Part shown: positions 3,171 through 25,345 of the stretch, in pieces
Position numbering within the stretch: the first letter of the stretch is position 1
Layout of the letters: every line of letters begins with the position of its first letter
Assembly (NCBI RefSeq): GCF_004331675.1
Contig: NZ_SJSN01000016.1
Location: 62,001-126,000, forward strand
Direction of reading: 5' to 3'
Source of the DNA: Pedobacter frigidisoli
Lineage (GTDB): Bacteria > Bacteroidota > Bacteroidia > Sphingobacteriales > Sphingobacteriaceae
Length of the DNA stretch: 64,000 nucleotides
Position numbers and translations under genes: made by a program
The notes under the pieces: generated by a model
Told to the model about the DNA's origin: nothing
Databases searched by the model: none
The model's input: only the letters and a program-made list of their open reading frames with translations

Positions 3171-3267
3171 TTGAATTTTGGTTTCTGTAAAAAAAATTAC
3201 TGTATCTTCCACTTAAACCCGATTGAAGTGAAAATACTTTTAAAATTTGTAGCGACCCCGAAAAATC

Positions 3268-3331
3268 TGTCATGCTGAGGAACGAAGCATCTGTAACCTA
3301 TGAAACAGATTCTTCATTCCTCAGAATGACA
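3268..3331. repeat. Palindromic intergenic repeat, copy 2
   Basis: Two 26-base arms in inverted orientation with about three mismatches: the left arm begins TGTCATGCTGAGGAACGAAG and the right arm ends CTCAGAATGACA, around a short centre. The arm pattern GTCAT..TGAGGAACGAAG.ATC parallels the copy at 8921. It could form a long hairpin when transcribed. Confidence 0.7.
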
Positions 3332-3444
3332 GTAGTTTTTTTAAAAGATTTGAACGAAAAGCGGGACCGAACCAAACAAAATAACTTCTACAATTGCTTT
3401 CCAAATAAAATATATAACCTTGAAATCAAGATTTTATACCGCAT

Positions 3445-14558: not shown

Positions 14559-14654
14559 ATTTTATAATTGATCCCTAAAGTTAACTTTTTGTGCTAAAAT
14601 CATCCATTTCCAACATCCATTTTACATCTTCGTTTATTTTACTACTTTTGCATC

Positions 14655-14832
14655 GCTTTTGGTTTCCGAATTTACACCCGGAATTAAAAGGGAATGCAGT
14701 GTAAATCTGTAACTGTCCCGCAGCTGTAAGCTCTATAACGATTTTTCAATCAAATGCCACTTTTCAGTTTCCACTGAATGGGAAGGCGGTAAAAATCGGG
14801 AGTAAGTCAGAAGACCTGCCTTTAGCATATAT
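14655..14832 (+). ncRNA. Cobalamin (B12) riboswitch
   Basis: The core elements are in order: GGGAATGCAGTGTAAATC, then CTGTCCCGCAGCTGTAAGC, a variable insert, GGGAAGG, and the B12 box AGTCAGAAGACCTGCC ending near 14820. The adenosylcobalamin-binding aptamer lies about 100 bases before a BtuB-type receptor. A short hairpin at 14911-14926, seven bases from the ATG, may belong to a translational expression platform. The outer boundaries are approximate. Confidence 0.95.
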
Positions 14833-14932
14833 TTCATAGCTTTCGGGGATTGGAGCTAGGAGTGAGGTACTTTACGTTTTCGTATTTTCATTTCCTTTCT
14901 ATCTGTTGGCTGTGGGTTAAACTCACAATCAA

Positions 14933-21072: not shown

Positions 21073-22317
21073 TTAAAGTGCAGCTAATTCTTCTGCAAAA
21101 ATATTTTCAGCAACTTGCTCTTGCTTGTAAATCTGTCTACCAGTGTAGGCAATAAACACATTTTTCTCTAAAAGCAAATCGCGGTTTTTAATTAAGCTCT
21201 CCAATTTCACGGTTCCAATTACATATTTGTACTCACTTGCAGCATATCGTTCGCTGATGTTATCGAATGCCAATAATGTGATTAAATCTTCATCAGAATA
21301 GCGTAGATAAACTTCTAACAAAATATTCTCCGTATGCTTTACTCCATTTTCTGAGTGGTATTTCTTGTACTCATAACGATAATCATAACGTAAGGCTGCA
21401 ATATCAGAAAGTACTGCTGCACCAGTTGGATGACCACCAGCTCCTTTTCCAAAAAAGAATTGCTTATCGGCGAATGCCGCTTGAACAGTTACTGCATTGT
21501 ATTCATTTTCAACATTATAAAGAAAATCATCTTTAGCTACCAATTTTGGTAAAACATAAGTAACAATATCTTTTGTGTTTACTTTACGAGCAGTTGGAAC
21601 CAATTTAATTTTGAAGTTTTTTTCACGGGCATATTTAATATCATGTTGAGAAAGATTCTGAATGCCAATGTTCAAAATTGCATCGGGATTTACGAATAAA
21701 CCGTAAGCGTGTGCAGTGGCGATAGCCAGCTTATATTTTGGATCGTAACCACCAACATCTAAAATAGGGTCGGTTTCGGCAAAACCCAAATCTTGCGCCT
21801 CTTTTAACGCAGAATCATAGCTCTGGTTTTCGTTAAATATTTTTGAGAGAATATAATTCGATGAACCATTAAATATCCCACTTAACGCATGAAAAAGTTC
21901 GTTATCATAATATTCCTCTAAATTTCTAATGATTGGAATACTGCCACAAACTGCCCCTTCATACAATAATGAAGTTCCATGTTTCTGCTGCAGATCTACT
22001 AACTCTTTCAAATGTGTAGCAATCATTTTCTTATTAGCAGAAACTACATTTTTACCATTCTTTAATGCTGTGGTTACAATGTCATAAGCCGCATCAGCAT
22101 CGTTAATTAACTCTACAATCGTATTAATTTCCGAATTGTTCAGAATTTCATTTTTATCCGTGGTAAATAAATCCTTATCTAGTGTGCGTTTTTTTTTAGG
22201 GTTCTTAATCGCTATTTTAATTATTTCCAAGTTTAGGTTTTGGCTCTGAATAATATCCAATAAACCTTGCCCTACAACTCCGAAACCAAATAATCCTATT
22301 TTTAAATTTTTACTCAT
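21073..22317 (-). CDS. hom: Homoserine dehydrogenase
   Basis: Reduces aspartate semialdehyde to homoserine with NAD(P)H, the branch point to methionine and threonine. The 414-residue length fits the monofunctional enzyme. It shows a Rossmann start (KIGLFGFGVVGQGLLDII), NGKNVVSANKKMIATH, the catalytic domain segment YEGAVCGSIPIIRNLEEY, and NGSSNYILSKI with GFAETDPILDVGGYDPKYKLAIATAHAYG. The C-terminal tail replaces a classical ACT domain with about 80 residues of unclear type. It is the third gene of the metY-metX-hom run, 174 bases after metX, supplying homoserine to MetX. Confidence 0.95.
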   Translation of the reverse strand: MSKNLKIGLFGFGVVGQGLLDIIQSQNLNLEIIKIAIKNPKKKRTLDKDLFTTDKNEILNNSEINTIVELINDADAAYDIVTTALKNGKNVVSANKKMIATHLKELVDLQQKHGTSLLYEGAVCGSIPIIRNLEEYYDNELFHALSGIFNGSSNYILSKIFNENQSYDSALKEAQDLGFAETDPILDVGGYDPKYKLAIATAHAYGLFVNPDAILNIGIQNLSQHDIKYAREKNFKIKLVPTARKVNTKDIVTYVLPKLVAKDDFLYNVENEYNAVTVQAAFADKQFFFGKGAGGHPTGAAVLSDIAALRYDYRYEYKKYHSENGVKHTENILLEVYLRYSDEDLITLLAFDNISERYAASEYKYVIGTVKLESLIKNRDLLLEKNVFIAYTGRQIYKQEQVAENIFAEELAAL

Positions 22318-22491: not shown

Positions 22492-23586
22492 TTAAGCAGT
22501 GTGCTGCAACTTAAAAATCTTCTTATCTCTACTTTCTTTTATAAAAGTGCCGATGATGTTTGTTAGAGCATTTGTTTCAATCAAAAAACCATCATGGCCA
22601 TATTCAGAATGAATTGCAGCAAATTCAGCGTTTGGAATATGGTCTGCTAAATATTTTTGTTCCGATAATGGAAACAGAAAATCATTTTCGATTCCAATAA
22701 CCAATGTATTGGCCTTTATTAGCTTCAAGGCATCTGAAATTGATTTACGATTACGACCAACATTATGACTATCCATCGCTTTAGTTAAATAATAATAGCT
22801 GTAAGCATTGAAGCGATTTATTAATTTTTCTCCCTGATAATTTTGGTAAGATGATGCTCTGAAATTATCTGTTTTATCGTTTACACTTTCAACTTGAGTA
22901 TTGCCATAAGCATTATACGTTCTGTAGCTTAAAAGCGCAATACTGCGAGCTGTTTTTAAACCTTTACTTCCTCCATCAGGTTGGTTAGCAAAAAAAGTTC
23001 TATCGGTCGTAATTGCTAAACGCTGACTTTCATTAAAAGCAATTCCCCAAGGAGAATGAACCGCATTAGTGGCTACTAAAATTAAGTTCTCAATTTTATT
23101 GGGTTCTATAATTCCCCATTCAACTGCTTGTTGGCCTCCAAGTGAACCGCCAATTAAAAGTTTAATTTGATTAACGCTTAAATGATTTGCTAATAATTGA
23201 TGGGCTGATACAAAATCGCGAATGGTAAACTGCGGAAATGATAAAAAGTAGGGTAAACCATTTACAGGATTTGTGCTTAACGGACTAGTAGTGCCATAAT
23301 TTGAGCCCAGAACGTTTGCGCAAATTATGAAATGGTCTTGAGGATTAAACAAAGCGTTTTGCCCAAATAAACCTTCCCACCATTCAAAAACATCTGCGTT
23401 GGCCGTAAGTGCGTGGCAAACCCAAATTACATTATCTTTTTTGGCGTTCAGCTTTCCATAAGTTTGATAAGCAATTTGCAGGTTGCGAATTTTTTTTCCA
23501 CTTTCTAGTTTAAATTGTTTAGGATAACTATATACCTCAGCCCCTAAATTAGATTTTGAATTTATATCGTTGTTGCTATTTTGCAT
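22492..23586 (-). CDS. metX: Homoserine O-acetyltransferase
   Basis: An alpha/beta hydrolase-fold enzyme that transfers acetyl from acetyl-CoA to homoserine. The 364 residues include the nucleophile elbow GGSLGGQQAVEWG with S148, the upstream VCHALTANADVFEWW oxyanion region, the NVLGSNYGTTSPLSTNP block typical of MetX, and the catalytic His near the end in YGHDGFLIE. The product O-acetylhomoserine feeds MetY, encoded 47 bases upstream on the same strand. Acetyl versus succinyl specificity is assigned from the MetX rather than MetA fold. Confidence 0.95.
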   Translation of the reverse strand: MQNSNNDINSKSNLGAEVYSYPKQFKLESGKKIRNLQIAYQTYGKLNAKKDNVIWVCHALTANADVFEWWEGLFGQNALFNPQDHFIICANVLGSNYGTTSPLSTNPVNGLPYFLSFPQFTIRDFVSAHQLLANHLSVNQIKLLIGGSLGGQQAVEWGIIEPNKIENLILVATNAVHSPWGIAFNESQRLAITTDRTFFANQPDGGSKGLKTARSIALLSYRTYNAYGNTQVESVNDKTDNFRASSYQNYQGEKLINRFNAYSYYYLTKAMDSHNVGRNRKSISDALKLIKANTLVIGIENDFLFPLSEQKYLADHIPNAEFAAIHSEYGHDGFLIETNALTNIIGTFIKESRDKKIFKLQHTA

Positions 23587-23633: not shown

Positions 23634-25028
<1,395 letters not shown>

Positions 25029-25051: not shown

Positions 25052-25066
25052 TCCCGATTATCGGGA
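25052..25066. repeat. Short palindrome in the metY leader
   Basis: TCCCGAT and ATCGGGA mirror each other around one base. On the minus-strand transcript it lies between the Cys-rich frame and metY and could be a hairpin or anti-anti-terminator stem, although no T run follows. Confidence 0.4.
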
Positions 25067-25107
25067 CCTTCCAATTTGAAAAAGAAACAAAAGAGGAAGT
25101 TTTTAGA

Positions 25108-25227
25108 TTATTGTATGCAACAGCACATAAAGGTAATCGCCTGCCTATCATGCATAAAACAAATAGAAGAATTTGCTATTCTGTTTAAATTCTGCTCGCC
25201 TTGCGATTGAAGATTTAATGTATTCAT
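25108..25227 (-). CDS. Putative Cys-rich leader peptide of the metY operon
   Basis: 39 codons from the ATG at 25227 to the TAA at 25108, starting 8 bases past the riboswitch's closing stem. The peptide is Asn/Gln-rich and ends ITFMCCCIQ, with three consecutive Cys codons five codons from the end. A GGAGAT sequence lies 15 bases upstream of the ATG. Placed between a SAM riboswitch and a sulfhydrylase gene, it looks like an attenuator leader that reads cysteinyl-tRNA supply. After its stop codon, CTAAAAA and a later TTTTTAG, and CTTCC and GGAAG, could form alternative stems. This is inference; no known family was recognised. Confidence 0.5.
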   Translation of the reverse strand: MNTLNLQSQGEQNLNRIANSSICFMHDRQAITFMCCCIQ

Positions 25228-25234
25228 CAGTTTT

Positions 25235-25345
25235 AATTTATATCTCCAAATAACACCATGTCATTTGAACAGGAATTGGCACCTTCTCTTTCTGAGGGTT
25301 GCCAGTGGGTCACGGAGCCAGTCTCTCGCCACTTCTTTATAAATC
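25235..25345 (-). ncRNA. SAM-I (S-box) riboswitch
   Basis: On the minus strand the order is AAGAAGTGGCGAGAGACTGG, CTCCGTGACCCACTGGCAACC, then AAGGTGCCAATTCC. These are the conserved core sequences of the SAM-I aptamer. A plausible P1 closing stem pairs GATTTATA (from about 25345) with TATAAATT (to about 25235). It represses methionine genes when S-adenosylmethionine is high. The expression platform must lie in the 280 bases between here and metY. Confidence 0.93.

Follow-up and report, generated by a model that had tools for sequence, protein, structure and literature searches.

Amino-acid leader peptides typically raise expression upon starvation, and in mgtA/mgtL a leader ORF is combined with other sensing in one 5' leader. 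Mycobacteria are described as possessing leaderless polycysteine leader ORFs, which are cited as acting in cysteine-responsive attenuation (Canestrari et al. 2020, PMC8764745, cited in PMC9031893). For the cys and cbs genes of actinobacteria, leader peptides with runs of Cys codons near the stop were described in 2005; they come without a conserved terminator hairpin, and Rho was considered as one possibility (PMC1262725). The uORFC-8-2 motif upstream of cysS in Rhodobacterales contains an upstream ORF with tandem Cys codons and is described as showing features of ribosome-mediated attenuation (PMC8632094). Among SAM riboswitches, the SAM-II element of Sinorhizobium metA exerts a distant action on translation initiation and is accompanied by a further downstream element (PMC9373788), while the mgtC leader of Salmonella joins a leader ORF to other sensing within one 5' leader (PMC3641672). 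Within the Bacteroidota, attenuation by leader peptides has been suggested for Flavobacterium psychrophilum in general terms (PMC9723704), and short ORFs reminiscent of leader peptides were reported for Bacteroides thetaiotaomicron (PMC7366714).

Here, we analyse a leader of Pedobacter frigidisoli in which a SAM-I aptamer is followed by a short ORF with a run of Cys codons near its end and by the operon metY-metX-hom, i.e., methionine genes under SAM-I (Table 1). The window, by which we mean the whole stretch of 64,000 nucleotides that was analysed, had been given a preliminary description, whose reading of a canonical aptamer is borne out by a match over model positions 1-108 of 108, far above the gathering score. 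A frame of 39 codons starting 8 bases behind the aptamer and about 150 bases of leader before metY had also been described. The ORF list contains this frame (translation MNTLNLQSQGEQNLNRIANSSICFMHDRQAITFMCCCIQ); 7 nt separate its ATG from the aptamer end, and its stop lies 154 nt before the start of metY at 24953. The assignment of the three genes stands in part, as MetY and Hom pass curated NCBIfam cut-offs, while for MetX the name given is merely the best one and remains below them. The window MetY is 96% identical to MetY of P. chinensis and two further Pedobacter species. A polycysteine attenuator of the mycobacterial type should have adjoining Cys codons within a short ORF ahead of a sulfur operon, and in this respect the locus conforms. 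The leader AUG sits 3' of the 111-nt aptamer, which must be transcribed to work. No transcript start is mapped, and the Bacteroidota promoter consensus TAnnTTTG (PMC9723704) is not enriched near the aptamer (4 of 74 loci at -45 to -8).

Table 1. Features of the metY leader and further RNA matches in the window.
Feature	Position in window	Strand	Evidence and remarks
SAM-I (S-box) riboswitch aptamer	25235..25345	-	RF00162, 73.1 bits (gathering score 44.4), E 3.3e-15; P1 3' strand ends at 25235
Leader ORF, 39 codons plus stop, end MCCCIQ	25108..25227	-	ORF list; frame kept in relatives
Met-Cys-Cys-Cys codons AUG UGC UGU UGC	25117..25128	-	own-genome pattern match C8:87117-87128; Cys tail kept
H1, hairpin over Cys codons	25112..25131	-	consensus fold; 92.9% of cells paired, 34 rows; near-invariant in Pedobacter
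H2, CUUCC...GGAAG stem	25068..25099	-	five pairs invariant in 34/34 rows
H3, UCCC...GGGA hairpin	25052..25066	-	4/5 counted pairs change on both sides in some relatives
metY, O-acetylhomoserine sulfhydrylase	23634..24953	-	TIGR01326, 677.2 bits (cut-off 495.1)
metX, homoserine O-acetyltransferase	22492..23586	-	best name, below curated cut-offs
hom, homoserine dehydrogenase	21073..22317	-	NF004976, 323.6 bits (cut-off 205)
Cobalamin riboswitch (side observation)	14643..14837	+	103.2 bits
Flavo-1 RNA match (side observation)	3211..3372	+	46.1 bits; central hairpin with long insert

The best 80 metY loci of public genomes were collected with up to 1500 bases upstream each (at least 567 relatives were confirmed), and 73 of these 80 carry SAM-I. 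Searches across the phylum (148 genomes) and across the class (197 genomes) supplied extra loci, and SAM-I was present in 32 of the 40 scanned first among these. The total set comprises 106 SAM-I–metY loci, the window included. Leader ORFs were chosen by a rule blind to cysteine, which takes the first ATG-ORF of at least 8 codons starting between -6 and +70 nt from the aptamer end, and were called Cys-tailed if the last 12 codons include at least three Cys. Under this rule, 85 of the 106 loci possess a Cys-tailed first ORF, versus 0-2 of 106 in each of 20 dinucleotide-shuffled sets. Four more SAM-I–metY loci from other classes (L149, L150, L152 and L154), which were added later, have no Cys tail, and this brings the overall figure for SAM-I loci seen at metY to 85 of 110. 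Since the loci are related by descent, none of these counts are independent.

Among the 21 loci that fail the rule, some are truly leaderless (L133, L135 and loci of other classes). L112 and L166 fail only because an earlier ATG was chosen and show Cys tails from their second ATG; seven others have Met/Cys-containing ends that stay below the rule. The aptamer-metY distance is 586-801 nt in six of the 106 loci, among them L110 and L131, so that another gene may intervene there. An OsmC-like ORF of 145 aa (assigned by eye) is seen between Cys leader and metY in L110, and by spacing also in L131, whose leader is identical to that of L110 and which is possibly from the same organism. SAM-I and leader may thus control the OsmC-like ORF too.

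The preliminary description had named in advance what would refute it, in part a frame or Cys run that is not conserved in relatives. On this part the description was not refuted. Three consecutive TGY codons, searched in any frame, occur in 72 of the 106 loci, and in every one of these 72 the first such run shares its frame with an ATG located -6 to +20 nt from the aptamer, with no stop between; the other two frames of the same stretches contain 185 and 124 stops. Together with the shuffled sets, this rules out a chance ORF. We take the Cys-ending frame after the aptamer as coding, which is a conclusion from sequence, and the pair of aptamer and Cys leader is real and widely conserved.

Cysteine makes up 40.5% of the last 12 residues of the 85 leaders versus 2.7% of the body, and methionine 12.9% versus 0.9%. 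The same was found in 21 divergent, hand-picked leaders (tail Cys 46.0% and Met 12.7%; body Cys 1.4% and Met 2.3%). The enrichment of Met beside Cys implies that the cysteine sensor initially proposed may be a sensor of cysteine and methionine. Codon-level conservation of the Cys run, which was to be expected of a leader peptide according to the preliminary description, is supported by 238 UGU and 175 UGC codons in the tails of the 85 leaders: as both codons are used, conservation across clades acts at the amino-acid level. Inside Pedobacter, the tail codons UGC UGU UGC are near-fixed at the RNA level too. The leader ends MCCCIG in two loci of P. cryoconitis (L059 and L067), a species with published genetic tools (PMC12181424, strain PAMC 27485). 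Purifying selection in the frame had been named as a second test. Uncorrected pN/pS values of the body are 0.67 and 0.45 in two Pedobacter groups and 0.71 in a Mucilaginibacter group, suggesting modest selection on the leader body. The tail is lower in Mucilaginibacter (0.17), while the tails of the two Pedobacter groups (0.53 and 0.56) are little or not below their bodies.

Two readings would do without a leader peptide. The ORF could encode a small functional Cys-rich protein, e.g., a metal, redox or sulfur sensor, given that the Cys-rich ends are kept and that pN/pS of the body, at 0.45-0.71, is below 1. We regard this as very improbable, because the bodies differ among clades (by eye), the length varies from 25 to 52 codons, the Cys residues stand at the very end beside the stop, and the ORF adjoins the aptamer upstream of metY in 85 loci. 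Still less credible is the idea that the UGY repeat is an untranslated RNA element serving as a structure or protein site. It could draw on the near-invariant UGC UGU UGC of Pedobacter, which lies inside H1, but has to face the fact that all 72 runs can be read, without a stop, in the frame of an ATG adjoining the aptamer, that UGU and UGC are both used elsewhere, and that Met codons are co-enriched.

The position of the leader start is constrained. Over the 85 loci, the AUG lies at -1 to 15 nt from the aptamer 3' end, at 3-11 nt in 80 and at exactly 7 nt in 34 of them, which places the 3' strand of P1 within the initiation region. A partner that could pair with this strand in the alternative does not stand out in the next 80 nt (mean z 0.05, 81 loci). 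With neither such an anti-P1 element nor a convincing terminator, the leader start is the one conserved neighbour found for P1 to act on. This fits the earlier proposal that SAM gates translation of the leader, which remains an inference from geometry as far as the effect of SAM is concerned.

For the RNA that follows the Cys codons, a consensus fold of 34 Pedobacter-type loci suggests three hairpins, H1 to H3. In this model, 95.3% of the cells pair and 43 cells are changed on both sides; 0 of 500 shuffles reach the paired fraction, the both-side-changed cells or the covariation score. Two of the five measures, the count of pairs with changes on both sides and that of additional pair types, are not above shuffles (419 and 447 of 500 reach them). 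Of the seven pairs that make up H1, the window lacks one. H3 covaries, with UCCC/GGGA, CCCU/AGGG and CCUC/GAGG as alternatives. H2 is one of two stems that had been proposed to compete in this leader. Its CTTCC and GGAAG halves are indeed found in all 34 aligned Pedobacter-type leaders, although pairs that never vary speak neither for nor against pairing. The other stem, CTAAAAA with TTTTTAG, is present in the window and, by eye, not kept beyond the nearest relatives. A terminator/antiterminator pair could not be shown. An element of the type CTTCC-GGAAGG common to other genes was rejected, the pattern CTTCCN{14,34}GGAAGGYCY occurring once in the genome.

In 36 Pedobacter-type loci, the Met of Met(CysCysCys) and CUUCC are 28-32 nt apart (sd 0.82). 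The distance from the stop to CUUCC is 3-13 nt (sd 1.76), i.e., the stop moves; in four loci it is shifted and the RNA compensates. The fixed distance from the Cys codons suggests that the ribosome position on these codons matters. Mucilaginibacter leaders carry a different stem, ACACG/CGUGU, and 22 loci of this genus showed no fixed distance (sd 1.94 when measured from the Cys run, 1.61 from the stop). The 100 nt that follow the leader stop are folded more than shuffles across 81 loci (mean z -1.76; 58 of 81 below -1).

No intrinsic terminator was found in the window, and terminator-like sites in 10 of 85 loci versus 3.7 in mononucleotide shuffles represent a small excess that is not convincing. 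Pairing of downstream RNA with the Cys codons as a general switch was dismissed, being only weakly above chance (mean z -0.43; 14 of 85 loci at or under 5 of 100 shuffles), and so was a Pedobacter long-range helix joining UACGC to the Cys codons, which lacks covariation support. Without a convincing terminator and a general alternative pairing of the Cys codons, the classical trp scheme is not met. The Cys-sensing attenuation leader of the preliminary description is supported with amendments: the Cys run near the ORF end is present in 85 of 106 loci, a classical terminator-antiterminator is not shown, and Met has to be added. That termination after the leader depends on Rho is a guess. It would fit the lack of terminators and may be paralleled by the actinobacterial cys leaders.

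Other SAM-I sites served as control. The genome-wide scan with RF00162 recovers the window aptamer and yields two copies in total, the second of which precedes a metH-like gene (by eye) and is not followed by a CCC leader. This second site and the 30 best-scoring SAM-I loci of 99 genus genomes, which are not a random sample, constitute 31 control loci. No CCC-containing ORF is listed between aptamer and next long ORF in any of them; in one locus before a receptor-like gene (L021), an ORF at +126 nt includes 3 Cys among its final 12 codons. As a side observation, SAM-I precedes SusC/TonB-receptor-like genes (by eye) in 13 loci, L021 among them, where another short ORF of the type MKKTDELKS...FRMR.C (also RMCMSC or CCRMCM) follows with its ATG about 110-126 nt after the aptamer. 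This is possibly a second kind of Met/Cys/Arg leader. Nine further loci have SAM-I 53-101 nt before a cysteine desulfurase-like gene (by eye), and no ORF with at least 2 Cys is listed between the two in those loci.

Cys runs elsewhere in the genome were also inspected. The pattern ATGTGYTGYTGY has 11 sites versus 2 for a control pattern read backwards; the other 10 sites were rejected as leaders by eye, as the Cys codons mostly lie at the start or in the middle of the frame. Two sites at which a Cys run ends a very short frame (L114 and L117) were discarded, the next ORF of more than 80 codons being 658 and 1186 nt away. No Cys/Met-tailed ORF (three or more Cys or Met among its final 14 codons) was found in the 700 nt upstream of five other sulfur genes, i.e., those of CysM, a CBS-like protein and three PF01053 paralogues.

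The pair of SAM-I and Cys leader occurs in nine families of the class, counted by family code, as well as in MAGs named Flammeovirgaceae and Cyclobacteriaceae, which may overlap those families. In the class search, 31 of 197 genomes gave a match at E <= 1e-190, and 30 loci, our own included, were fetched. Both elements are present in 19 of these, four have a Met/Cys tail without SAM-I, two have SAM-I with a weak tail, and five show no convincing tail (SAM-I is present in L133 and L135 and absent in the other three). No Cys leader follows the aptamer in the ten SAM-I loci of the 106 that belong to other classes of the phylum; there, SAM-I is located 88-174 nt before metY in eight, and 733 and 801 nt in two. 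Conversely, 8 of 18 metY loci without SAM-I have a Cys-tailed ORF within 500 nt, where shuffles expect 1.0, and six of these look convincing as leaders when judged by eye, HHCMCMCCMCM and SCMMCMCM being examples of their tails. Two loci of another class of the phylum (L140 and L148), without SAM-I at the gathering score, were seen to have a Met/Cys-rich short ORF about 200 nt before metY, ending in CCMMCMCM and SCMMCMCM.

For a tree of MetY, rows were thinned at 88% position-wise identity, and the 76 rows of the tree were labelled with 47 SAM+Cys (L112 and L166 counted as such by hand), 11 SAM only, 5 weak, 6 Cys only and 7 neither. The SAM+Cys label is clustered, requiring 9 changes versus a mean of 23.4 upon shuffling, with 0 of 500 shuffles as low. 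It is conceivable, and put forward here as a tentative generalization that may well fail, that throughout the Bacteroidia SAM-I before metY gates a Cys/Met leader peptide rather than a terminator or metY itself, and thereby forms a nested RNA logic gate that integrates SAM, charged tRNA(Cys) and charged tRNA(Met), hence the entire status of sulfur amino acids, within a single 5' leader. Since some families have the Met/Cys leader before metY without the aptamer, the leader would on this view be the older or more general of the two.

From what is observed, namely a match to the aptamer model, a frame that is coding, a tail of Cys and Met, the constraint on the start position and RNA structure conserved after the leader, we derive a model that we hold to be rather probable, in the absence of expression or ribosome data: SAM gates translation of the leader, and ribosome stalling at Cys/Met codons then sets metY expression. 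The result would be a two-layer cis-regulatory leader over metY-metX-hom. In the first layer, the 3' strand of P1, about 7-15 nt upstream of the leader AUG, falls into the ribosome-binding region; bound SAM would close P1 and block leader translation, where the position is observed and the binding of SAM with a change in P1 is inferred. In the second layer, at low SAM, the leader would be translated (itself an inference), and the ribosome would read the Cys codons and the interspersed Met codons close to the stop. Under a shortage of charged tRNA(Cys), or of Met, it is presumed to stall on the tail, in Pedobacter at a set distance from the hairpins that precede metY. Transcription would then most likely continue into metY, while on untranslated or promptly vacated RNA premature, perhaps Rho-dependent, termination would be favoured. 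Hence, full expression of metY would be reached under a joint scarcity of SAM and cysteine. That transcription is the controlled step, and the sign of control, are again inferred.

Both of these last points can be read differently. The leader might control translation of metY, by mRNA refolding or stability, and not transcription elongation, which would suit the unconvincing intrinsic terminators and the hairpins kept before metY. Three results weigh against it and make it rather unlikely in our opinion: the predicted metY start is mostly unpaired (0.62, 81 loci), arguing against direct sequestration, its distance to the leader stop is 88-217 nt in 81 of 85 loci, and no conserved stem sequestering it was found in two folded alignments. 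As to the sign, MetY and CysM both use sulfide, and a Cys shortage could turn metY off in order to spare sulfide for cysteine synthesis, with prompt reading of the Cys codons turning it on. The genes for both sulfide users are present in this genome, and, with a usual ribosome footprint, a ribosome at the regular stop would reach the 5' side of H2 while one stalled at the Cys codons would not. Yet the stop keeps no fixed place with respect to H2 (3-13 nt), amino-acid leader peptides typically raise expression on starvation, and the mycobacterial polycysteine leaders are cited as cysteine-responsive attenuators, so that we consider the opposite sign unlikely.

For the preferred model, in which Cys shortage raises metY, the enzyme inventory is of interest. 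CysM passes its cut-off, and a cystathionine beta-synthase/cysteine-synthase-like protein remains below the cut-offs over the stretch scanned. Besides MetY, there are three full-length PF01053 proteins, one of them over the cut-off of a cystathionine gamma-synthase model. With CysM, CBS-like and cystathionine gamma-synthase/lyase-like proteins present, homocysteine may feed Met and Cys. If reverse transsulfuration works, the homocysteine made by MetY serves both amino acids, and raising metY on Cys shortage makes sense.

Neither SAM-I with a Cys leader nor a Cys leader before metY was found described in the literature searched, which excluded supplements and most subscription journals and in which longer result lists were seen in part. 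Within these limits, the locus represents known parts, Cys leaders and SAM-I, in a combination that was found undescribed and is widely conserved. If true, the model describes an RNA gate with two inputs that occurs in nature, where a metabolite riboswitch governs ribosome entry into an amino-acid-sensing leader, and this gate spans many families of a large bacterial class with little-studied RNA regulation. It would provide a system for asking how a riboswitch and ribosome stalling combine, how attenuation proceeds without an evident intrinsic terminator, and in what way homocysteine synthesis is kept in balance between methionine and cysteine.

In comparison with the described systems, the metY leader shares the short ORF with contiguous Cys codons with the mycobacterial polycysteine ORFs, which exert cysteine-responsive attenuation of downstream genes; unlike these ORFs, which are described as leaderless, it follows SAM-I, precedes metY and includes Met codons in its tail. 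The actinobacterial cys/cbs leaders agree in their Cys runs near the stop and in the lack of a conserved terminator hairpin, but belong to another phylum and to other genes, and the part of PMC1262725 available mentions no riboswitch. The tandem Cys codons in an upstream ORF are likewise found in uORFC-8-2, which differs by a U-run end consistent with an intrinsic terminator and by its tRNA synthetase gene; a riboswitch is not mentioned in the accessible text of PMC8632094. The mgtC and mgtA/mgtL leaders respond to other signals and concern unrelated genes. Sinorhizobium metA resembles our locus in a SAM switch on translation initiation with a further element downstream, the effect of SAM at the metY leader being inferred, and departs from it in being SAM-II, with an in-frame second AUG, a terminator and no amino-acid leader. 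Finally, the aptamer is a full SAM-I of RF00162 at a methionine gene; unlike in the usual SAM-I arrangement, its P1, for which no anti-P1 was found, adjoins the start codon of a leader ORF and not a terminator or the gene's own start.
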